Virus record (IMG/VR): IMGVR_UViG_3300046171_000043
Span: 1-53,696 of that record
Length of the DNA stretch: 53,696 nt
From: a virus
Strand: one strand, 5' to 3'
Shown here piece by piece: positions 1-48,769 of the stretch. The notes under the pieces were generated by a model. It was not told the origin of the DNA, searched no databases, and saw only the letters and a program-made list of their open reading frames with translations. Numbering within the stretch: the first letter of the stretch is position 1; every line of letters begins with the position of its first letter. A program made the position numbers and the translations under genes.

Positions 1-278
1 CATAAAACAAATAGTTTAACCCTAAACCATAAAATGTTTAATACTAAACGTTTTTCATACTGAAATTAGTTTAACTTTAAACAAAATATCCGAAAGTATA
101 GTTTAACGTTAAACAATCGATACAAAATAATAGTTTAATATCGAACTATATATCCGAATGGGGCATGGGCCACCCCCCGGTATACCGTACGTATATATGC
201 CCATTGACAGAGAGGGGTATTTTTGGACTGTTAACCACTTTGTTAATCTTGTGGTTAACACTTGATCAATAATTAAGC
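1..278. promoter_or_regulatory. AT-rich non-coding region with five palindromic sites (14-146) and an inverted repeat
   Basis: I see no gene here. Five copies of a 14-bp palindrome of form GTTTAAnnnnTAAAC lie at 14-27, 36-49, 69-82, 101-114 and 133-146; the copy at 101-114 is a perfect palindrome and the last copy is degenerate on its right half. The starts are 22, 33, 32 and 32 bases apart, so the last four sites sit about three helical turns from each other. A 10-bp palindrome CGGTATACCG is at 178-187. A 9-bp inverted repeat (GTTAACCAC / GTGGTTAAC, 12-base loop) is at 230-259. A TTGACA hexamer at 205-210 has no good -10. Spaced palindromes between two divergent arms suggest an operator array or replication origin; the role is inference. 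Confidence 0.6.
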
Positions 279-579: not shown

Positions 580-680
580 ACCCATATCATCTTTTGTTGT
601 CCTATTTTCGACAGAAAATTGAAAGTCTTAGGTTGACTTATAGGGTACTTTACGTACAACTAGCCAACATAAGTAAAAAT

Positions 681-935
681 ATGAATAAAAGAGTAAAGTA
701 CTTTGAGTCAGACTCAGTACTAGAAGAGTTCTACAAAGCATTAGCAGACAGAAACGAGAAGAAATTACGTAGGGTACACATCCCACGTTCTGATGTCTTC
801 TATATTCGTAGAGCTTACTATGAGTCTACAGGCCACTGGGTATCCCTAGATAGAATGGAGAGGTCAATGTACCTCGAAGGTATGCTCCGTAAGCAAGATG
901 TTTTAGATCCTGACAGAAAAAGAGACTGGGAATAA
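681..935 (+). CDS. Hypothetical phage protein (84 aa)
   Basis: The frame is open from a TTG at 594, but the ATG at 681 (MNKRVKYFES) gives the protein-like part. The product is charged and probably helical, with a central segment HIPRSDVFYIRRAYYE. Its stop overlaps the next start as TAATG at 933-937, so it is translationally coupled to the holin-like gene and belongs to the lysis block. The ribosome site before 681 is poor, so the start is uncertain. I do not recognise the family. Confidence 0.6.
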   Translation: MNKRVKYFESDSVLEEFYKALADRNEKKLRRVHIPRSDVFYIRRAYYESTGHWVSLDRMERSMYLEGMLRKQDVLDPDRKRDWE

Positions 936-23525: not shown

Positions 23526-23535
23526 TACAAAAGTA

Positions 23536-23549
23536 GTTTAGTGTTAAAC
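23536..23549. promoter_or_regulatory. Single palindromic site, GTTTAnnnnTAAAC type
   Basis: GTTTAGTGTTAAAC sits in the 76-base gap between the tail chaperone and the glycosylation cassette. It shares the outer GTTTA/TAAAC arms with the five sites at 14-146. Its place suggests that the cassette is regulated by the same protein, or that the motif was carried with the cassette. The spacing of 53 bases to the GTG start fits an operator. Confidence 0.5.
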
Positions 23550-23601
23550 TAATCACCAGTGCCTGTCGGCTCTGTAAAGATAATAATAAGAAAGAAGACT
23601 C

Positions 23602-24528
23602 GTGAAGAAACTATTTATGATTGACGGTGGGGCAGGTCGTGCTATTGCAGCTATTCCTGCTCTTATCAAGTATTCAAAGAAACATGATGACTTTGCTATA
23701 CTCGTACATGGATGGGATACACTATACTGGGGTATTCCAGAACTACAAGACAAAGTGTTTAATCCAGAACAAAAAGGAATCTTTGAGCACGTAGTTTTAA
23801 AGGCAGAAGAGATTATATCTCCTGAGCCATATCGAGTACCAGGTTACTTTAAACAAGAGAAATCACTAGCAGAAGCTTTTGACTACCTGATTAACAACAC
23901 AGACGATCACTCTGACCTTGGAAGTCCTGTTTTAAAAACAGCTAAGATGGAAGAGGTAAATGCTGCAGGTATGGTTCTAGATGTTAAGAATCAGCAACAA
24001 AAGCAAAAGACTATCGTTATTCAACCATTTGGTAGGTCTATTCAAAGACATCAAACTGGAGTTCTTGTTGATGAATCATCTCGTTCACTTGACCCTGACT
24101 CTTACCTAAAATTAGTAAAAAAGCTTTCTGCTAAATTTAATCTTGTCCTAATGGCAGAACAACAGTGTCATATCCAAGAAGACACTTACACTGTAAAACC
24201 AAATGCAGATTTAAGGATGTGGATTCCTTTTATTGATGCAGCAGACTACTTTATTGGTGTAGATTCTGTTGGGCAGCATATGGCTAGGGCATTAGGTAAA
24301 CCCGGCACAATTATTGTTGGTTCTACTTTTGCTGTTAACACCACATATCCAGACTACTTTAACATTGTGGAAAAAAAGGATGCTAAGAAATATTCACCTA
24401 TTCGTATCTCAGGTCTTGAAAGCCATTTAGCTGATAGAGCAAATGATACGTTAATGGACTTTAACGATGAAGAGATCAACAAGATCTATGCAAATATCTT
24501 AAAAGACATTGAAAAGAAGGTGAAGTAA
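23602..24528 (+). CDS. GT9-like glycosyltransferase (heptosyltransferase-like)
   Basis: The start is GTG 23602 with a purine-rich ribosome site (AAGAAAGAAG). The 308-aa protein has a GT-B plan: an N-terminal GGAGRAIAAIPALIKYSKKHDDFAILV segment, then IVIQPFGRS, and a C-terminal donor site WIPFIDAADYFIGVDSVGQHMARALGKPGTIIVGSTF. This last stretch matches ADP-heptose:LPS heptosyltransferases (AADxxxGVDSGxxHLAxALGKP). Acceptor specificity cannot be told. It opens the cassette that encodes ADP-heptose biosynthesis, which strengthens the assignment of ADP-heptose as donor. No signal or membrane segment is seen. Confidence 0.75.
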   Translation: MKKLFMIDGGAGRAIAAIPALIKYSKKHDDFAILVHGWDTLYWGIPELQDKVFNPEQKGIFEHVVLKAEEIISPEPYRVPGYFKQEKSLAEAFDYLINNTDDHSDLGSPVLKTAKMEEVNAAGMVLDVKNQQQKQKTIVIQPFGRSIQRHQTGVLVDESSRSLDPDSYLKLVKKLSAKFNLVLMAEQQCHIQEDTYTVKPNADLRMWIPFIDAADYFIGVDSVGQHMARALGKPGTIIVGSTFAVNTTYPDYFNIVEKKDAKKYSPIRISGLESHLADRANDTLMDFNDEEINKIYANILKDIEKKVK

Positions 24529-24529
24529 A

Positions 24530-26236
24530 ATGAATATCTTAGCAATTAACCCTGGGCATAACGGATCTGCTGCTTTGTTAGTAGACGGTGAACTAAAGTT
24601 CTACATTGAAGAAGAACGTCTTTCTCGTAATAAGTATGATGGTAATCCTTTTAAAGGAATGATGGAAGCACTAAAGTATGGTGTGGATGTCTTAGTTCTT
24701 GGTGGGACAAGTGAAGAGTTTCCTAGATTACCTTGGACTGGAGAAGATCCTTACTCTGGATTCCTACGTAAGTTTAACAGAAACTTAGAAGTTATAACTG
24801 TAGGCAATGCCCACCATGTAGGACATGCCGCAGGTGCTTTCTATAACTCAGGGTTTGACAAAGCTGTTGCCGTTATTGTTGACGGTTCTGGAACTCGAAG
24901 AGAAATTACAGTTAATAAAGACTTTAAAAACCCAGGTTTTGAAACAGAATCATTATTTAATTGTGACTATCATGACGGTATAAGAAATCTGTATACTAAG
25001 TACGGTGGCAACTACGACACTATGCCCATAGAGGACACCATGCTTGATATGGATAATGCAGTCACATTGGTGAAAGCATACGAAGCTGTTTCAGAGTACC
25101 TTGGCTTTGGTTTTATTGAAGCAGGTAAGACAATGGGTCTTGCTCCTTATGGTAAAGAAAACCCAGAAGTTCCTGAGCTATTTGTAGGGGGTAGAGGTAA
25201 CAAGAATGTTTTTATCCCTAGCTACCCTGCAGGAGCACACGTAGACCACAGAAAGTTTCCTTTACTAAAGCTAACAGGTAACCCAAGAGAGTGGCATCAA
25301 GACCCTACAAAAGTTACAGAAGGTGCTAAAGATTTAGCTTGGGCTGTGCAAGAAGATACACAACGTCTTGTTGGGGATTTGATTGAAAAAGCTGTAGAAA
25401 TGACAGACAGAAAGAATGTCGTTATTGCAGGGGGTTACGGTCTAAACTGTGTAGCTAATTATTACTACAAGAAACGTTTTCCTGATCTAAACATTTACGT
25501 TGATCCTGTTTCTCATGATGGTGGTACAGCTATTGGCTTAGCCTACCTAATTCATTACCAGAAGAATAAAGAAGATGAAACGAAACGTCCACTAAGTACA
25601 CTGTACCTTGGGCCTGAACGTAAAGAAAATTACGATCTAGAAGGATGCGACACAAAGGATGTTACCCCTGCTGATGTAGCTAAACTGATTGCAGAAAAGA
25701 ACATTGTTACGTTGTTCCAAGGCAGATCAGAGGCAGGGCCAAGAGCACTTGGTAACCGTTCTATCCTATATGACCCCACAGATCCTAATGGTAAAGACAC
25801 AGTGAACAAGGTCAAAGGCCGTGAATGGTTCAGACCCTTTGCAGGATCAATGCTCAAGGAATACTTTGAGGAATGGTTTGAAACACATGGAATGGAAGAG
25901 TCACCATTCATGATGTATGCAATGGACTTCAAGACTGACAAGCATGGGGAAGTTCCTGCTATCACACACGTAGATGGTACATGTCGTATTCAGACTGTAA
26001 CCAGAGAGCAGAACGAAGCCTATTATGATCTCATTGAAGAGTTCCGTAAGATCACTGGTGTACCAATCCTGTTTAATACAAGCTTCAACCTAGCAGGTGA
26101 ACCCCTTGTAGAAACACTAGAGGATGCACTGCACACCATGAAGAACTGTGACATTGATTACATGTACCTACCAGAGGTAGGGAAGCTTGTTACGGTAGCT
26201 TCTGAGCAAACTGAAGAAGATTCTCAAACACCTTAG
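24530..26236 (+). CDS. NodU/CmcH/TobZ-family O-carbamoyltransferase
   Basis: The 568-aa protein has the full family layout. The N-terminal ASKHA-type domain shows NPGHNGSAALLVDG, EERLSRNKYDG, HHVGHAAGAFYNSGF and AVIVDGSGTRRE. A central GGYGLNCVANYYY and DPVSHDGGTAIGLAY come next. The C-terminal YrdC-like domain shows EAGPRALGNRSIL, REWFRPFAGSM and VPILFNTSFNLAGEP. The family transfers a carbamoyl group from carbamoyl phosphate, through carbamoyl-AMP, to a sugar hydroxyl. Here the likely substrate is the sugar made or transferred by this cassette (inference). It starts 2 bases after the upstream stop. Its 3' end overlaps the inverted gmhB by 47 bases. Confidence 0.9.
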   Translation: MNILAINPGHNGSAALLVDGELKFYIEEERLSRNKYDGNPFKGMMEALKYGVDVLVLGGTSEEFPRLPWTGEDPYSGFLRKFNRNLEVITVGNAHHVGHAAGAFYNSGFDKAVAVIVDGSGTRREITVNKDFKNPGFETESLFNCDYHDGIRNLYTKYGGNYDTMPIEDTMLDMDNAVTLVKAYEAVSEYLGFGFIEAGKTMGLAPYGKENPEVPELFVGGRGNKNVFIPSYPAGAHVDHRKFPLLKLTGNPREWHQDPTKVTEGAKDLAWAVQEDTQRLVGDLIEKAVEMTDRKNVVIAGGYGLNCVANYYYKKRFPDLNIYVDPVSHDGGTAIGLAYLIHYQKNKEDETKRPLSTLYLGPERKENYDLEGCDTKDVTPADVAKLIAEKNIVTLFQGRSEAGPRALGNRSILYDPTDPNGKDTVNKVKGREWFRPFAGSMLKEYFEEWFETHGMEESPFMMYAMDFKTDKHGEVPAITHVDGTCRIQTVTREQNEAYYDLIEEFRKITGVPILFNTSFNLAGEPLVETLEDALHTMKNCDIDYMYLPEVGKLVTVASEQTEEDSQTP

Positions 26237-26837
26237 TCTTCTTTCTTAGTTTCTCCTTAGAGAACTTTTGAAGATCTTTTTCAGTAGCTACCCCATGACC
26301 AGTACGTACTAAGATTGGGGTAGCACCAATACGATCCGCAGCTTTAAGATCTGTCATTTTATCACCTACGTAAAACCCTTTATCTTTAAATCTAATTTTG
26401 TTGTTGAACATTTCTTTTTCAGTACGGTGAAACATACCAAGATTAGGTTTTGCATAGTAGTCTTCTTTGAGTGAAGACTCAGCATAAAATAAACCATCAA
26501 TGGAGTAGATACCTGCATTGCCAAACACTTCCATCATACGTTGATGAATGGCATCCACTTGTGCATGGGTCTGCTCTTTTTTAATAATACCACCTTGGTT
26601 AGTTAAGATTACTACTTTGTAACCTTTTAATCTAATCATACGAATAGCTTCTAGTGATCCGGGGATAGGCTCCCAGTCATCAGGATCAGTAAGGTAGTGC
26701 CCTTTATCTATGTTGATAACACCGTCACGGTCTAGACCAACAATAGATTTAGGGAACACAGTAGGCCAATCAGGTGGTAGGTTTTGCTGTTGAACTTGTT
26801 GTGGGTCTTGTTCTATTATGTGTTTGAATCGAGACAT
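26190..26837 (-). CDS. gmhB: GmhB-like D,D-heptose 1,7-bisphosphate phosphatase
   Basis: HAD-superfamily IIIA phosphatase, 215 aa. The first 30 residues (Gln/Pro rich) are extra. The catalytic motif is GLDRDGVIN (Asp36 nucleophile, Asp38), followed by ILTNQGGI, AKPNLGMF and FYVGDKMTDLKAADRIGATPILV. The family removes the C7 phosphate of heptose 1,7-bisphosphate before nucleotide transfer. The usual zinc loop (CxH...CxC before the RKP motif) is missing: here YAESSLKEDYYAKP has no Cys. The gene is inverted relative to the rest of the cassette, overlaps the carbamoyltransferase end by 47 bases, and leaves only 14 bases to the divergent hldC-like start. Confidence 0.85.
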   Translation of the reverse strand: MSRFKHIIEQDPQQVQQQNLPPDWPTVFPKSIVGLDRDGVINIDKGHYLTDPDDWEPIPGSLEAIRMIRLKGYKVVILTNQGGIIKKEQTHAQVDAIHQRMMEVFGNAGIYSIDGLFYAESSLKEDYYAKPNLGMFHRTEKEMFNNKIRFKDKGFYVGDKMTDLKAADRIGATPILVRTGHGVATEKDLQKFSKEKLRKKTKVFENLLQFAQKLP

Positions 26838-26851
26838 AGTGGATATTACCT

Positions 26852-27262
26852 ATGAAGAAAGTTTTTGTTAACGGTGCTTTTGATGTTTTGCACTCTGGAC
26901 ACCTTGATCTCCTTGATTTTGCAGGGATGTTAGGTGGTCATTTGCTAGTAGCTATTGACACAGACGCACGTATTGAGTATAACAAGGGTATCGGAAGACC
27001 TTTTAATCCTTTGTCAATACGTAAACATATAATGTCTATGTTGAAGCCTGTCAATAGTGTCACAGTATTTGGTTCAGATGAAGAGCTAGTTGACATCATA
27101 AGACAGTATGAACCAGACGTAATGGTAAAAGGCTCTGATTGGAAGGGGAAGACAATACTTGGGGAGGAGTACTGCAAAGAGATAGTATTCTACGAGAGAA
27201 CCAATGGGCAGTCTACCACAAAAGCAATCGAAGATTTTATTACTAGGAGACAGTTGTTATGA
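26852..27262 (+). CDS. HldE C-domain-like heptose 1-phosphate nucleotidyltransferase
   Basis: The 136-aa protein is a stand-alone cytidylyltransferase-fold domain. FVNGAFDVLHSGHLDLLDFA carries the HxGH motif (His14, His17). VAIDTDARI, KGIGRPFNPLSIR, DVMVKGSDWKGK and ERTNGQSTTKAIEDF are the other family signatures. In HldE this domain makes ADP-heptose from heptose 1-phosphate and ATP. Here it is separate and lies before the kinase, the reverse of the order in bacterial HldE. Its last 59 bases overlap the kinase gene in another frame, and both readings carry conserved residues. Confidence 0.85.
   Translation: MKKVFVNGAFDVLHSGHLDLLDFAGMLGGHLLVAIDTDARIEYNKGIGRPFNPLSIRKHIMSMLKPVNSVTVFGSDEELVDIIRQYEPDVMVKGSDWKGKTILGEEYCKEIVFYERTNGQSTTKAIEDFITRRQLL
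27026..27054 (-). promoter_or_regulatory. Candidate minus-strand promoter for the inverted gmhB
   Basis: On the minus strand TTGACA (27054-27049) and TATATG (27031-27026) are 17 bases apart, about 190 bases upstream of the gmhB start and inside the hldC-like gene. The -35 is consensus and the -10 matches four of six. Chance occurrence is possible in AT-rich DNA. Confidence 0.3.
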
Positions 27263-27959
27263 TGAATATCATACAGGAACTGTAACCAGAATAAGCCCAG
27301 AGGCACCTGTACCTGTCTTTGATCTTACCTCAACTGTAATAAAAAGAGGTATGGCATACAACGTCTACAACAACCTAGTCAATCTAGGGGCTAGGGTAGA
27401 CATCATAACAGAGTACAGAGAACGTAAACATAGATACGTTGAAGACAAGACTGGTCAGCAACTGATCAGAGTAGATGAAAAGATTAAGACTGAGCACATA
27501 GATACAGCAGACGAAAACCTGAGTATGTATGATGCTGTTGTCCTCTCAGACTACAACAAAGGATTTGTACAAGAGGGTGACATAAAAGATTTTAGAGCTA
27601 AGTATAACGGGCCTATCTTTGTTGACACTAAGAAGACCAACCTAGCTCAGTTTGATGGCTGCTTCGTAAAGATAAACCAGTACGAGTTTGAAGCAGCAGA
27701 AACACTAACAGACGATCTAATCGTCACATACGGCTCAAAGAAAGTCGAGTACAAAAACAGAACTTACCTACCCCCTAGTGTAGAAACTCATGATGTGTGT
27801 GGTGCAGGAGATACGTTCCTAGCAGGACTTGTTTTTAAGTACTTGGAATCGTATGATATGGATGCTGCTATAAAGTTTGCAATGGATGCAGCAGCTATAA
27901 CTGTACAACATAGAGGTGTGTATGCACCTACACTAGATGAGGTAGTAAATGAGACTTGA
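27204..27959 (+). CDS. HldE N-domain-like heptose 7-phosphate kinase (PfkB family)
   Basis: The 251-aa ribokinase-fold protein shows KILLLGDSCYDEYHTGTVTRISPEAPVPVFD near the start. It continues with GMAYNVYNNLVNLGARVDIIT, LSDYNKGFV and the catalytic CGAGDTFLAGL (Asp about 203). RISPEAPVPV is characteristic of HldE/RfaE kinases. The reaction is phosphorylation of D-glycero-D-manno-heptose 7-phosphate at C1. It is shorter than the HldE kinase domain (about 310 aa), with a compressed middle. The start at 27204 lies inside the upstream gene; no later Met would keep the GD...EY motif. It overlaps the cupin gene by 11 bases. Confidence 0.8.
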   Translation: MGSLPQKQSKILLLGDSCYDEYHTGTVTRISPEAPVPVFDLTSTVIKRGMAYNVYNNLVNLGARVDIITEYRERKHRYVEDKTGQQLIRVDEKIKTEHIDTADENLSMYDAVVLSDYNKGFVQEGDIKDFRAKYNGPIFVDTKKTNLAQFDGCFVKINQYEFEAAETLTDDLIVTYGSKKVEYKNRTYLPPSVETHDVCGAGDTFLAGLVFKYLESYDMDAAIKFAMDAAAITVQHRGVYAPTLDEVVNET

Positions 27960-28305
27960 AGGCTTCGTTAAGAAAGGTTGGGGGTCTGAGCTAATCTGGG
28001 CAACCAACGACAAGTATTGTGGTAAGTTCTTACAATTTCACTTTGGTGGCAAGTTTTCAATGCACTTCCACAAAGAGAAAGATGAAACATGGTACGTCTT
28101 ATCTGGTAAGTTTGAAGTACACTGGATTGATACTGAAGATGCAACATTACACGTTGAAGAGTTAAACGAGGGAGACACATGGCATAACCCACCTCTAGTT
28201 CCTCATCAAATATTTTGTTTAGAGGAAGGTACACTTGTAGAAGTTTCTACTCCTGATTCCGTTGAAGATAATTATCGTGTCGGAAAGGGAGACAGTCAAG
28301 AATGA
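27949..28305 (+). CDS. Cupin-domain protein, sugar isomerase-like (118 aa)
   Basis: A single cupin barrel. The metal-binding motif 1 is FSMHFHKEKDETWYVLSGKFEV (two His and a Glu), and motif 2 is WHNPPLVPHQIFCLEEGTLVEVST with one His. The sequence resembles the small mannose-6-phosphate isomerase type II-like cupins found in capsule and O-antigen loci. It could isomerise or epimerise a sugar phosphate in this cassette, where no GmhA gene is present; whether it replaces GmhA is speculation. Overlaps both neighbours (11 and 4 bases). Confidence 0.65.
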   Translation: MRLEGFVKKGWGSELIWATNDKYCGKFLQFHFGGKFSMHFHKEKDETWYVLSGKFEVHWIDTEDATLHVEELNEGDTWHNPPLVPHQIFCLEEGTLVEVSTPDSVEDNYRVGKGDSQE

Positions 28306-29072
28306 AAATCTTAGTTACAGGTAGCAATGGTTTTATCGGCAAAAATCTTATCAATAAACTACAGGATGAACATGAAATTATTAAGAACGAATGGGGGATG
28401 TCGTTCCCTCCAATTAAGAATCTAGACTGGGTTATACATTTAGGGGCCATAAGCTCCACAACAGAAACAAATATATCTAAGATATACAGACAGAACCTAG
28501 AGTTTAGCATTAAGCTATATGAGGAGTGCATAGCTAACAACGTAAAGTTTCAGTTTGCTTCTAGTGCTTCTGTCTACGGACTAAAGTCCGACTTTAAAGA
28601 AACATCTCCTCTTAATCCTCAGAACCATTATGCACGTAGCAAAGCTATGTTTGAGAGATACGTAGAGTTGAGAAATGCTCCTATTACTACACAACTGTTT
28701 AGATACTTTAACGTCTACGGACCACAGGAAGAGCACAAGGAAAACCAAGCTAGTCCGTACACACAGTTTAAGCGGCAAGCAAAAAGTAGTAGAGTTATTA
28801 AGATCTTTAAAGGATCTGAAAAGTATAAAAGAGATTTTATCCACGTTGACCAAATCACAGAGTACCACAAAGGATTCTTAGAATTAGAAGAGTCAGGTGT
28901 TTGGAACATGGGAACTGGAACAGCAAAAAGCTTCTACGATGTAGCTAACGAAATAGCAGATGAATACGGTGCTAAAATAGAGTACATCGAGATGCCACAG
29001 ATTTTAAAAGGTAATTACCAAGAGTTTACTAGGGCAGATACGACAAAGCTTTGGAAGACACTAGCAATTTAA
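28302..29072 (+). CDS. hldD: HldD-like ADP-heptose 6-epimerase
   Basis: An extended SDR protein of 256 aa. The Rossmann motif is TGSNGFIG (Gly7, 10, 13). HLGAISSTTETN, FASSASVYG, NHYARSKAMFE, YFNVYGPQEEHK, FKGSEKYKRDFIHV and ILKGNYQEFTRADTTKL follow, each matching the corresponding signature of HldD (for example GAxSSTTE, YFNVYGPRExHK, GSExFKRDFVYV, LKGRYQxFTxAD). HldD converts ADP-D-glycero- to ADP-L-glycero-D-manno-heptose with NADP. It is shorter than E. coli HldD (310 aa). Last gene of the cassette; ATGA overlap with the cupin gene. Confidence 0.85.
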   Translation: MKILVTGSNGFIGKNLINKLQDEHEIIKNEWGMSFPPIKNLDWVIHLGAISSTTETNISKIYRQNLEFSIKLYEECIANNVKFQFASSASVYGLKSDFKETSPLNPQNHYARSKAMFERYVELRNAPITTQLFRYFNVYGPQEEHKENQASPYTQFKRQAKSSRVIKIFKGSEKYKRDFIHVDQITEYHKGFLELEESGVWNMGTGTAKSFYDVANEIADEYGAKIEYIEMPQILKGNYQEFTRADTTKLWKTLAI

Positions 29073-39725: not shown

Positions 39726-39977
39726 TTAAGACGATTTATCTTTTTGTTTTTTATGCTCAAGCATCAGACAGGAATAACAGAATGCTTGATTAACGATCTC
39801 GTCTGATCGTAAATACTTTCCAGATGCTATTAACCCGGACAAGGCTGCACCTGCAAAGTAATCCCTAGATGGTATGTCACCACTAGGAATGTCGGATTTA
39901 ATAAACTCTTGGGCTTCTTGCTCAAGGGTTTTATTTTTTGGTGGCCTACCTCTTGGCCTCTTTTGTGTAGTCATCAA
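39726..39977 (-). CDS. Small protein with AT-hook-like motif (83 aa)
   Basis: The N-terminus MMTTQKRPRGRPPKNK contains the AT-hook core RGRP flanked by basic residues, which binds the minor groove of AT-rich DNA. The rest is helical with two Cys (FCYSCLM) near residues 70-73. It is the last gene of the minus arm and overlaps the DUF3310 gene by 32 bases. Regulatory or nucleoid-binding roles are possible. Confidence 0.55.
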   Translation of the reverse strand: MMTTQKRPRGRPPKNKTLEQEAQEFIKSDIPSGDIPSRDYFAGAALSGLIASGKYLRSDEIVNQAFCYSCLMLEHKKQKDKSS

Positions 39978-44635: not shown

Positions 44636-45157
44636 CTAGAAGGGGATTGAGTCCTGAGGTTCTTGGGAGGAGGTGGAAGACGTAGAACCACCAGAACTCG
44701 ATTGGTCTGTGAACATTGAACGTGGTTGGGAGGGACCACCTTCTGACTCATAGACCACATGCTCTAGGACTTGAAGACCTAGAAGACGTGAACCTTTACG
44801 TGCACCTGCATCGTATAGTTCAAACTTGACGATGCCCTCACTACCATTACCAATGAAACCTTTTTCATCTAGGCTCCAAAGCTTGCCAGTAACATCAGCT
44901 ACCAGAGGTGCACCCCCTTGCCACTCATGCTTACCTTTGTGAGGACGATCTAGGGTGACTCTCCACCCATTGTCTGTCTCTGTAAACTTTTTACCAAGAC
45001 CTGCTTTCTGCAAAGTCTTCATAGTTTTTTCATCAGTATGAACCGTTACCTTGTACATACCGTCAGTCTCCTGATGGAACTCTGCACGGTCACGGTTGGA
45101 CTCAAACACTTTAGCCCATTCAATCATACCTTTAATTTCGTGTTGTGTTGATGGCAT
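44636..45157 (-). CDS. ssDNA-binding protein-like (173 aa)
   Basis: An OB-fold-like body (MYKVTVHTDEKTMKTLQKAG, GNGSEGIVKFELYDAG, GLQVLEHVVYES) is followed by a Ser/Thr/Gly linker and the acidic-hydrophobic tip PQDSIPF, the classic C-terminal tail by which SSB proteins contact partners. The location after polymerase and before nucleases agrees with T7 gp2.5-type genes. Sequence similarity to classic SSB is not obvious, so this rests on the tail, size and place. Confidence 0.7.
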   Translation of the reverse strand: MPSTQHEIKGMIEWAKVFESNRDRAEFHQETDGMYKVTVHTDEKTMKTLQKAGLGKKFTETDNGWRVTLDRPHKGKHEWQGGAPLVADVTGKLWSLDEKGFIGNGSEGIVKFELYDAGARKGSRLLGLQVLEHVVYESEGGPSQPRSMFTDQSSSGGSTSSTSSQEPQDSIPF

Positions 45158-45209: not shown

Positions 45210-47174
45210 TCAATGGGTTTCTGCCCAATTTTTTCCTATGTCAGATGAACCAGGTGTAGGTATCTTGAATCCTAGCTCTTGACCAGTCTCAAGCATACAC
45301 TGTTCTTGGATCTGACCAAGACGTCTGGCTTCTTCCTCTGTACCTATAACCTCTACTTGGTATTCATCGTGAATGAACCCTACCATCTTGAAGTTGATAC
45401 CTTCCTTACGTGCTGCGTCATGCCACCGTAGGAGTGTGTGCTTCATGAGGCAAGCCTCACCATTCTGAAGGATACCTGCTAATGCTTTGTGTGCATTGGG
45501 TACAACAACCTTACGTCCATCGTATCCTTTGAAGTAACCTTGCTCTGCTACGTATGGAATCAATCTGTTCTTTAGATTGTATAGCCCATCAATAGACATC
45601 TCAAATCGAGTACGTGCATCCTGTGCTTCTTTCATGTTGACCTTAAGGATCTGTGCAGTCTTAGCTACACCTGCACCTAGCAGCCAAGCATAGATGAATG
45701 TCTTAGCCATGTCTCGTGTACCGTTGGGTACGTCCAAGGCTTTCTTGTTGAGGTTGTGAATGTCTGTCTCGTCTTCCTTCTTACCTACCATGATAGCTTG
45801 TGCATACTGGTCTGCATCAAAGTGTCTCCAAAGATAGTCGGCTAATACTCTAAGCTGAATACCATCAGCATCAGTGCCAACCAACCAAGAACCAGAAGGA
45901 ACAGTCCAACAAGCACGTAGATGTAGATCATATTGTTTCTTTACCTCTTCTACTGGTGACTTAGCATCACCGTGGAATGGTGAAGATATGTTAGCTGTGT
46001 TAGGGTCTTTGTGTGCACAACGTCCTGTCCATGCACCAATGCTCTGAATCCTACCATGTATACGTGAGTCGTCCTTACACTGGCCTATCCACTCCACCAG
46101 TGAGCTTCGTCTACCTTCAAGGGTCAACCACTGGGCTAGAGCTTTGGCTCCTGTAGGGGCATCGTCAGGCAGTGTACTAAGGTTTGCCTCTGATACAGTG
46201 AAACCGTAACGATCAAGGTCAGCTTTCTTGTTGTCGTAGAACTCTTGGTCCATTGCCTCCACAGATTTACCGTAGGGGTCACCAACTTTCTTACGTGCAA
46301 AGTTGATAGCTGTCTTGGTTTTGTCTACAGGTTTCCAACCTGCATCCCACAGTGCATCAATACGATCCTTGGATGATCCGGGATTGAACTCTATCCAGTC
46401 AAAGCATACTAGTTCTTCACCCACTTCTACTATGGTTAGTGCATACTTTTCTTTTGCTTTGGTTACTGTAGCCATTTCAGTACCATCTTTCTTTAGTCGG
46501 TACTTCAAACGATTTACCTCTTCCATCTTGGGTGGGAAGTCTACCTGGAATTGTTCTTCCAATGTCTTCATCTTTTGTTGCACAGAGTTAAGAAGGAACT
46601 CAGCTTTGTTCTTGTCAAACTGAAAGCCGTAGTACTGTGTACGTACTAGCTCTATCTGCACATCGTGCTCTGTTCTCAGAGAAAGTTTCCAATCATTATC
46701 CCAAATAGTAGAAGAGAAATGTTCATAAAGAGCATGAGTAACCTCGATGTCTCCATACCAGTATTCAACCATTTCATCACTGAACTTATCAAACTCATGG
46801 AAATCTCCTTTATGTTTACCTAGTCGGATACCCCAAGCCTGTAGGCTGTGAGGAAACTGTGCACCCTTGGGTGTGTCAATGTCGTAGTTCACAAGTCTAC
46901 TGATAACCAAAGTGTCTATGACTTTCTTTGGATCAATCAATCTAGGCTTGAGTAGTTTGTTTAACATGGGTGCATCAAACTGAATGAAGTTGTGACCAAC
47001 AATCAGGTCAGCAGATTCATACCATTCAATAGCTGCAGCCTTAGCTACAGGATCTTCATGGCAGTTCTCAAACTTGTGTACTTCACCTGTTGTGAGATCC
47101 TTACCACCACACAACCACAGCTTATCACTCCCCTCTAGTCCGTTAGTTTCTATATCACTAACGACTATCTTCAT
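45210..47174 (-). CDS. DNA polymerase, family A with 3'-5' exonuclease (T7-like)
   Basis: The best start is ATG 47174 (MKIVVSDIETNGLEG), overlapping the helicase stop as ATGA; a TTG further up is less likely. Exonuclease motifs are DIETN, VGHNFIQFDAPML and YGDIEVTHALYEHF. Polymerase motif A is GTDADGIQLRVLA, motif B is RDMAKTFIYAWLLGAG and motif C is GFIHDEYQVEV. The 654-aa length is close to T7 gp5 (704). At the E. coli 762 position it has Tyr, like T7. The Tyr usually found four residues later (766) is Leu here, and the following Gly is kept. It replicates the phage genome with the adjacent primase-helicase. Confidence 0.92.
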   Translation of the reverse strand: MKIVVSDIETNGLEGSDKLWLCGGKDLTTGEVHKFENCHEDPVAKAAAIEWYESADLIVGHNFIQFDAPMLNKLLKPRLIDPKKVIDTLVISRLVNYDIDTPKGAQFPHSLQAWGIRLGKHKGDFHEFDKFSDEMVEYWYGDIEVTHALYEHFSSTIWDNDWKLSLRTEHDVQIELVRTQYYGFQFDKNKAEFLLNSVQQKMKTLEEQFQVDFPPKMEEVNRLKYRLKKDGTEMATVTKAKEKYALTIVEVGEELVCFDWIEFNPGSSKDRIDALWDAGWKPVDKTKTAINFARKKVGDPYGKSVEAMDQEFYDNKKADLDRYGFTVSEANLSTLPDDAPTGAKALAQWLTLEGRRSSLVEWIGQCKDDSRIHGRIQSIGAWTGRCAHKDPNTANISSPFHGDAKSPVEEVKKQYDLHLRACWTVPSGSWLVGTDADGIQLRVLADYLWRHFDADQYAQAIMVGKKEDETDIHNLNKKALDVPNGTRDMAKTFIYAWLLGAGVAKTAQILKVNMKEAQDARTRFEMSIDGLYNLKNRLIPYVAEQGYFKGYDGRKVVVPNAHKALAGILQNGEACLMKHTLLRWHDAARKEGINFKMVGFIHDEYQVEVIGTEEEARRLGQIQEQCMLETGQELGFKIPTPGSSDIGKNWAETH

Positions 47175-48769
47175 ACGTCCCAATGTACTTCCTCCAAGAT
47201 AGTAGTGTCTGGATCATAGAAGACTGATCCTGCATTACCTAACTTAGCAAAAGGTCTGTTCTTGTCAACGATGAATTGAGTAGTGTTACGTACTATGTCA
47301 TCATCAGATTCTGTGTCACGATTAAGTTTGATACAGATGATGGCCTCTTCTTCAAGGGAAGCTGCATACTTAGTACGTCCATCCTCATTCACCTGAGAGA
47401 TAAAGACAACACCAATGTTCAACTCCTTAGCAAGCTGTGCCATACGTGCACCAAGTGTAGTCAGTGTACTGGTGGCAGCATCCACACCTGAGTTAGACAG
47501 GTAGGCTAGACGTTGGACGTGATCAATAAAGATAAACTCTGCACCGTATACTGTGGAGGCAAGACGTACATACTCCAACAGTTGCATTGGATCATCATGT
47601 GATTGCATCTCAAAGATCACAGTGTTCTCACCACCTGCCATCTTTTGTGCAGCCTGGATTACTTGCTCTTCAGTAAAACCTGTGGCCTCTGCATCCTCTT
47701 TGGTACGGACGTTGTGGCCTAGCTCGTAGGTTGCCATAGCACGGTAGGTTGTGGACTTCATCTCTTCCATGTGGAGTAGGGCAACACGAGTGTTCTGTCT
47801 GAGTAGACCAACCTCAAAGTATCTGACTAGCTCAGTCTTACCTTGGCCTCGTAATGCTTTGATGAATGTCAGCCCACCCTTCACAAGGCCACGGATCTTG
47901 TCATCGATTCCTGTGTGTCCAGTGGGTACATACTCGTATGGGTTCTCTGTTGTGATAGCTTTCTCAACTTCAAGATCACCAACAAAGAAGTTGTCAGGAC
48001 TGAATCGTTGAGGCTTGAGTGCTGCCCACTTCAAGTCATCACCATCACCGTTCATCAAGAACTCGTTGGCATCTTTCCACTTGGACATAGGCACGTAGTA
48101 AAACTTCTCAGGCATCATGCTGTAAAGCTTCTGCGCTGCGGCCTTACCTGCAGCATCAGATAGTTCACCTGCATACACAACCTCAGAGAATGAATTGATG
48201 TACTCAAAGTTATCCTTCAAGAACTTCTCTGACAGTGAGGCACTAGGCAGTGACTTCACAGGGTAGGACTTACCTAGAACCTGATACAAACTGGCTGCAT
48301 CAAACTCACCCTCTGTAATGTACAGACGTTTGCTTGAACCTGCGTTGAAGTCAGGACCAAACAGATCCGTAGGTGACCCACGTTCTTTAGTCCAGAACTT
48401 CTTCTCTGCATAGCCACGATACTTGACGTTGTTAGGATACTTGAATGCGTAACGTACTGGTGTGTTGTTCTCACCGAACTGCAACTGAATGTTGTACAGC
48501 TTTGCTACGTCTTCATCCAAGCCACGAATGTCATTGAACCTACCAGTAATTATCTTGGTGTTACGTAGGTCAACCTTCGGTGGAGGGGGAGGGTAGGTAG
48601 ACTCAGCCCAATCAAACTTCTTATCTGAGTTGGGGTAGCCTCTACCACAGGAGTGACACTTACCAATCTTGCTGTTGATGTTGTAAGAGAAAGCATCACT
48701 GCTTGCACAATCCTCGAAGGGGCAAGGCTGATGTGCTATCTCTCCGTTGCTGCTCACTACTGCTGTCAT
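47171..48769 (-). CDS. Primase-helicase (T7 gp4-like)
   Basis: A 532-aa bifunctional protein. A zinc-binding N-terminus (HQPCPFEDC...KCHSCG) is followed by a TOPRIM region, KRLYITEGEFDAASLYQVLG. The RecA/DnaB-type helicase has Walker A ALRGQGKTELV, Walker B EFIFIDHVQRL, then GVVFISQVNEDG and FIVDKNRPF. The second TOPRIM acidic motif, usually DxDxxG, reads GELSDAAG, so one Asp is missing. It would unwind DNA and synthesise primers for the neighbouring polymerase. Its start overlaps a small upstream gene by 74 bases. Confidence 0.9.
   Translation of the reverse strand: MTAVVSSNGEIAHQPCPFEDCASSDAFSYNINSKIGKCHSCGRGYPNSDKKFDWAESTYPPPPPKVDLRNTKIITGRFNDIRGLDEDVAKLYNIQLQFGENNTPVRYAFKYPNNVKYRGYAEKKFWTKERGSPTDLFGPDFNAGSSKRLYITEGEFDAASLYQVLGKSYPVKSLPSASLSEKFLKDNFEYINSFSEVVYAGELSDAAGKAAAQKLYSMMPEKFYYVPMSKWKDANEFLMNGDGDDLKWAALKPQRFSPDNFFVGDLEVEKAITTENPYEYVPTGHTGIDDKIRGLVKGGLTFIKALRGQGKTELVRYFEVGLLRQNTRVALLHMEEMKSTTYRAMATYELGHNVRTKEDAEATGFTEEQVIQAAQKMAGGENTVIFEMQSHDDPMQLLEYVRLASTVYGAEFIFIDHVQRLAYLSNSGVDAATSTLTTLGARMAQLAKELNIGVVFISQVNEDGRTKYAASLEEEAIICIKLNRDTESDDDIVRNTTQFIVDKNRPFAKLGNAGSVFYDPDTTILEEVHWDV

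Follow-up and report, generated by a model that had tools for sequence, protein, structure and literature searches.

The left edge of the window, by which we mean the whole 53,696-nucleotide stretch analyzed (an IMG/VR viral record classed as linear), carries a helically phased array of palindromes that probably acts as a multicopy operator through which a host repressor of the MarR family, acting at the pyruvate/malate node, would gate phage early transcription. As judged from sequence comparisons, the best candidate for the binding protein is a MarR paralog of Rhodobacterales with a VTRGAMTNTL recognition helix.

A scan of the window sequence identified exact GTTTA-N4-TAAAC sites at positions 14 to 27 (GTTTAACCCTAAAC), 36 to 49 (GTTTAATACTAAAC), 69 to 82 (GTTTAACTTTAAAC), and 101 to 114 (GTTTAACGTTAAAC, a perfect palindrome). 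A fifth, degenerate site with two mismatches was located at 133 to 146 (GTTTAATATCGAAC), giving start-to-start distances of 22, 33, 32, and 32 b; none of the sites was assigned a strand. The original prediction had listed five 14-mers with these starts, and all were found in place, the first four exact and the fifth degenerate. Dinucleotide shuffling of the window, repeated 1000 times, yielded on average 0.108 copies of the exact motif (maximum two) and never a pair of exact sites less than 60 b apart. The extended site consensus was TAGTTTAAYRTTAAACTA, with a variable central dinucleotide in the phage sites (C 0.27, G 0.49).

The window was assigned to an HMO-2011-type roseophage with Roseobacter phage CRP-9 as the nearest isolate (approximately 81% over 58% of the first 25 kb). 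CRP-9 is one of the HMO-2011-type relatives with RCA roseobacters as hosts, and the host order of the window is presumed to be Rhodobacterales. The CRP-9 genome has two gene arms that point away from a noncoding region of approximately 1.2 kb (approximately 1 kb in relatives), the two sides of which correspond to the two ends of the window; the array thus lies between divergent arms, as had been proposed for a circular genome. In comparison to CRP-9, the window lacks approximately 1.6 kb at the junction, comprising 600 b left of the array together with gp01 and gp02. The same five sites with identical spacings are present in CRP-9, where the fifth is mirrored as GTTCGATATTAAAC, and three sites are present in CRP-13. 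Relatives found via the first right-arm gene contain two to five sites, mostly 490 to 700 b upstream of that gene, and a scan of their loci showed that exact sites are almost confined to the divergent noncoding region. The motif search in relatives that had been suggested therefore revealed an array conserved in both presence and position. Among 145 spacings from 63 nonredundant arrays, 28 were 20 to 23 b and 107 were 29 to 34 b, equivalent to about two and three helical turns, respectively. With 135 of the 145 spacings in these two classes, the placement of the sites on one helix face is borne out.

The same phased array also occurs in noncoding regions of apparently unrelated phages with a GC content of 0.40 to 0.53, in part by terminase-like genes (loci L097, L105, L113, L138, L100/L119, L112/L126, L116/L143, and L115/L130/L145). 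CRP-2 (L009), which has no such array, contains TTGCA-N4-TGCAA-type palindromes in the equivalent place, spaced 22, 22, and approximately 32 b; when L009 is read as its reverse complement, they lie approximately 350 to 440 b away from the end. These palindromes share the geometry of the array and differ from it in specificity.

The array is embedded in a conserved order of elements, consisting of a leftward early promoter (PL), the array, a GC-rich block, an inverted repeat, the promoter of a small ORF, an ACTnnnAGT tract, and a rightward promoter. All promoters are predictions made by consensus and partly by eye. In relatives, PL has a TAYAAN −10 element, and a 14-mer is centered approximately 20 nt upstream of it. 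This 14-mer is of the array type in L029 and L033, in which the equivalent of site 1 (GTTTAGGGTTTAAA) is centered 20 nt from the PL −10 and lies 22 b from the next site. Because the spacing in the window matches that in L029 and L033, site 1 is taken as the PL-proximal 14-mer; by position, it should overlap the PL −35 region, with the −10 beyond the left end of the contig. In many relatives, including CRP-13 and CRP-603, TTTGTGATCACAAA palindromes take the promoter position of site 1 and recur nearby.

To the right of the array, the conserved GC-rich block spans 160 to 227 (GGGGCATGGGCC...GGTATACCGTACGTATATATGCCCATTGACAGAGAGGGG) and the conserved inverted repeat 229 to 260 (TGTTAACCAC...GTGGTTAACA), both without strand. 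A predicted sigma70-like promoter on the plus strand (262–290, TTGATC...TATAACT, consensus by eye) lies upstream of a small ORF at 297 to 428. The AT-rich region with degenerate ACTnnnAGT repeats (482–581, no strand) precedes a conserved predicted rightward promoter (633–662, plus strand, TTGACT-TACAACTA) in front of the first right-arm gene (681–935, plus strand), which encodes 84 amino acids and is conserved in all relatives. Immediately before the rightward promoter, the ACTnnnAGT palindromes form a second repeat array with a period of 11 to 12 b, which is conserved in relatives. The first right-arm gene product was rejected as the array binder, as its four-helix AF2 model had no PDB match and it belongs to no helix-turn-helix family. 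An adjacent early gene as the cognate regulator was likewise rejected, since the leftmost early gene varies among array carriers.

The same site was found in front of host metabolic genes. Rhodobacterales-like genomes were selected through the identity of their glpD to that of a Sulfitobacter plasmid, from which we infer the order name. Of 302 such genomes, 111 contained the exact sequence GTTTAANNTTAAAC and 19 the reversed control; GTTTAANNTTAAAC was present in none of seven genomes lacking the subfamily MarR described below. In 19 of 30 host loci read, a single site was located directly upstream of the start of the gene for NADP-malic enzyme, typically with a −10-like sequence before it and the ribosome-binding site after it; this position over the start region suits repression. 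Other sites among the 30 loci precede pdhA and lpd. The most frequent operator sequence among the host sites was GTTTAACGTTAAAC, that is, window site 4. Matrices derived from phage sites, malic enzyme/pyruvate dehydrogenase (PDH) sites, and MarR-operon sites agreed, including the flanking T(−1) and A(+16).

Paired sites were searched for in approximately 85,000 prokaryote genomes, and two main groups emerged. The first comprised Enterobacteriaceae, Enterococcus, and Listeria; those of its pairs that were inspected lay at sugar-transport operons, several of them beside a LacI-family gene. The second comprised ten contigs, which are alphaproteobacterial, gammaproteobacterial, or from MAGs. Here, pairs with a distance of 20 to 27 b immediately precede an operon encoding a MarR and an Acg-family FMN oxidoreductase; the Acg and MarR family assignments were confirmed. 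Orthologs were present in 41 of 385 alphaproteobacterial genomes, with paired sites at most of the best-matching loci. The recognition helix VTKGAMTN pairs with the operator GTTYAAnnTTRAAC, and VPKTTMTH (order taken as Rhodobacterales) pairs with GTRCGATATCGYAC. Operator specificity thus covaries with the MarR recognition helix, which points to a MarR protein as the binder. Site 5 of the window and its CRP-9 equivalent are hybrids in which a GTTTAA half is joined to a TCGAAC half, the latter being characteristic of operators for VPKT-type MarR.

A MarR of the VTKG/VTRG subfamily is encoded in 379 of 391 Rhodobacterales-like genomes. The second MarR paralog carries FHVTRGAMTNTL, and a VTRGAMTNTL-type helix was present at 19 of 20 sampled loci. 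Its gene is mostly close behind an upstream gene, with no autoregulatory site there; for this reason the paralog's own operator was not seen, which counts against the MarR-repressor reading. Another point against it is that a LacI-family regulator can use GTTTAACGTTAAAC as well. The LacI-family regulator CceR controls MaeB in Paracoccus (PMC11323563), and this sequence is in use at LacI-linked operons of both Enterobacteriaceae and Enterococcus, so that CceR or another non-MarR host factor could be the one that uses the site. We regard this as very improbable, because neither the phage nor the host sites have a fixed central dinucleotide, whereas the inspected LacI-linked matches mostly keep CG, and because the operator–helix covariation favors MarR.

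A MarR profile search of the window and of CRP-9 gave no match, and a phage-encoded MarR was accordingly rejected as the binder. This agrees with the original prediction, which had noted no DNA-binding regulator nearby; the matching regulator appears to be host-encoded, which would explain why none lies near the array. The suggestion of a repressor operator array thus stood as regards the operator, as the same operator fronts host genes, and was modified as regards the regulator, which is apparently provided by the host and not by the phage. An early protein of 110 amino acids that weakly matches a winged-helix MarR was observed in CRP-13 (gp06, record positions 1991–2323), G010, L137, and L117; it is confined to the CRP-13 subgroup and has a different recognition helix.

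The host MarR-family repressor may work as follows. MarR dimers would occupy each TAGTTTAAYRTTAAACTA, all on one face of the DNA, and the bound stretch would run from the PL −35 region to approximately 150 b upstream. On the incoming phage genome, the repressor would repress or delay PL, the predicted driver of early and replication genes. PL would be released either when a host metabolic signal frees the repressor or when the growing number of sites on replicating phage DNA titrates it. If the array is such an operator, the timing of infection is probably left to a host carbon-metabolism repressor. Titration could also be the main purpose, with the array acting as a decoy that shifts host malic enzyme and pyruvate dehydrogenase expression instead of a phage promoter. 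Three to five near-consensus sites per genome, multiplied by replication, and a host regulon at the pyruvate/malate node are in line with this idea, but the first site is located at a phage promoter and the sites are helically phased, which a decoy does not need; we therefore consider it distinctly unlikely.

Perfect cosegregation of the array with a replication cassette is not predicted by simple transcriptional control and counts against the MarR-repressor reading. Only four protein families were present in all ten array carriers and in none of six noncarriers. All four are encoded on the minus strand of the window: a fused primase-helicase (47,171–48,769) and a family A DNA polymerase (45,210–47,183) of the replication cassette, a gp2.5-like SSB (44,636–45,157, weak PHROG match), and a small AT-hook-like protein (39,726–39,977). 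In IMG/VR, array sites were found at 20 of 20 loci with this T7-like primase-helicase versus none of 43 loci with separate primase and helicase, in samples that are mutually related and may represent one event. This cosegregation keeps alive the alternative of a replication origin, which the original prediction had offered in the form of a replication iteron set and in which the palindromes bind an initiator or origin-remodeling protein beside AT-rich repeats and serve a T7-like primase-helicase replisome. The AT-rich ACTnnnAGT tract alongside the array and a GC skew of opposite sign at the two window ends are consistent with an origin. On the other hand, no initiator was found by Pfam among the proteins scanned, the cassette association may go back to one event in a single lineage, the array is missing from cobaviruses that possess a related primase-helicase, unrelated phages do carry it, and an identical site precedes host metabolic genes. 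An origin function is thus rated as unlikely, albeit less so than a decoy.

The absence of the array from cobaviruses also led us to reject its inheritance along with cobavirus replication genes. A strict array–polymerase link was rejected as well: G012, G013, and G014 keep the array, the primase-helicase, and the SSB together with a very distant DNA polymerase (21% identity), apparently as a result of polymerase displacement inside the cassette. Plasmid iterons resemble the array as regularly spaced repeats near an AT-rich stretch; they are, however, directional, whereas the array consists of palindromes, has no Rep initiator found with it, and shares its sites with host metabolic genes. parS/ParB was rejected because no ParB_N was found in eight genomes and a symmetric base of the site differs from GTTTCACGTGAAAC-type parS.

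An exact sixth, stray copy of the site (TAGTTTAGTGTTAAACTA, no strand) was located at 23,536 to 23,549, ahead of an accessory sugar-modification cassette whose first gene follows after approximately 52 b. This cassette (23,534–29,072 including the sixth site) codes for a GT9-like glycosyltransferase, a carbamoyltransferase, a HAD phosphatase, a cytidylyltransferase, a PfkB-like kinase, a cupin, and an epimerase, and is missing in CRP-9 as well as in the remaining isolates of the comparison. The location of the sixth site suggests shared control of the sugar-modification module.

CtrA recognizes the consensus TTAA-N7-TTAA, and the array was rejected as a CtrA cluster because its sites read TTAA-N2-TTAA. 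Clusters of CtrA-binding sites are nevertheless the closest known system, and the array would by analogy work similarly with another host regulator. In phages of Alphaproteobacteria, such clusters occupy large intergenic regions and have been connected to "lytic deferment" (PMC9437464, in which MarR is not mentioned). Both systems place dense host transcription factor sites in a large intergenic or promoter region in several phage lineages to read the host state, and the array, like the CtrA clusters, is concentrated in one intergenic promoter region. The CtrA clusters involve a cell-cycle factor and pili- or flagellotropic phages, whereas the array consists of 14- to 18-bp MarR-type palindromes of a carbon-metabolism regulon. 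In phage GIL01, host LexA binds a set of promoter sites and gates early expression (PMC4551915), as is proposed here for a host repressor at the array; GIL01 differs in its use of LexA and the SOS response, its temperate lifestyle, and the phage-encoded helper gp7, no counterpart of which is known for the array. The chromosomal MarR/Acg operons and the malic enzyme/PDH sites of Rhodobacterales have an extended operator identical to that of the array, and the 20 to 27 b between MarR/Acg operon pairs resemble the 22-b phage spacing. The chromosomal operons differ in having one or two sites each, in contrast to three to five phased at approximately 32 b in the phage, and no phage gene is homologous to those of the MarR/Acg operons.

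HMO-2011-type phages are described in PMC9038755 as dominant and broadly distributed in the ocean; a search of this paper and of the roseophage papers PMC12629253 and PMC6918029 found no description of the array or of early-gene control. A more far-reaching scenario, which we put forward tentatively as a possibility well short of probable, is that several unrelated marine Rhodobacterales phage lineages independently wired the early promoter, the origin, or both to a host MarR sensor of pyruvate/malate via phased arrays, so that the carbon state would gate transcription and replication while titration would reprogram malic enzyme and PDH. If the host-repressor reading is true, the outcome of infection would depend on the nutrient state of the host through a defined site and protein, and the "lytic deferment" idea developed for CtrA would extend to a second, metabolic regulator.
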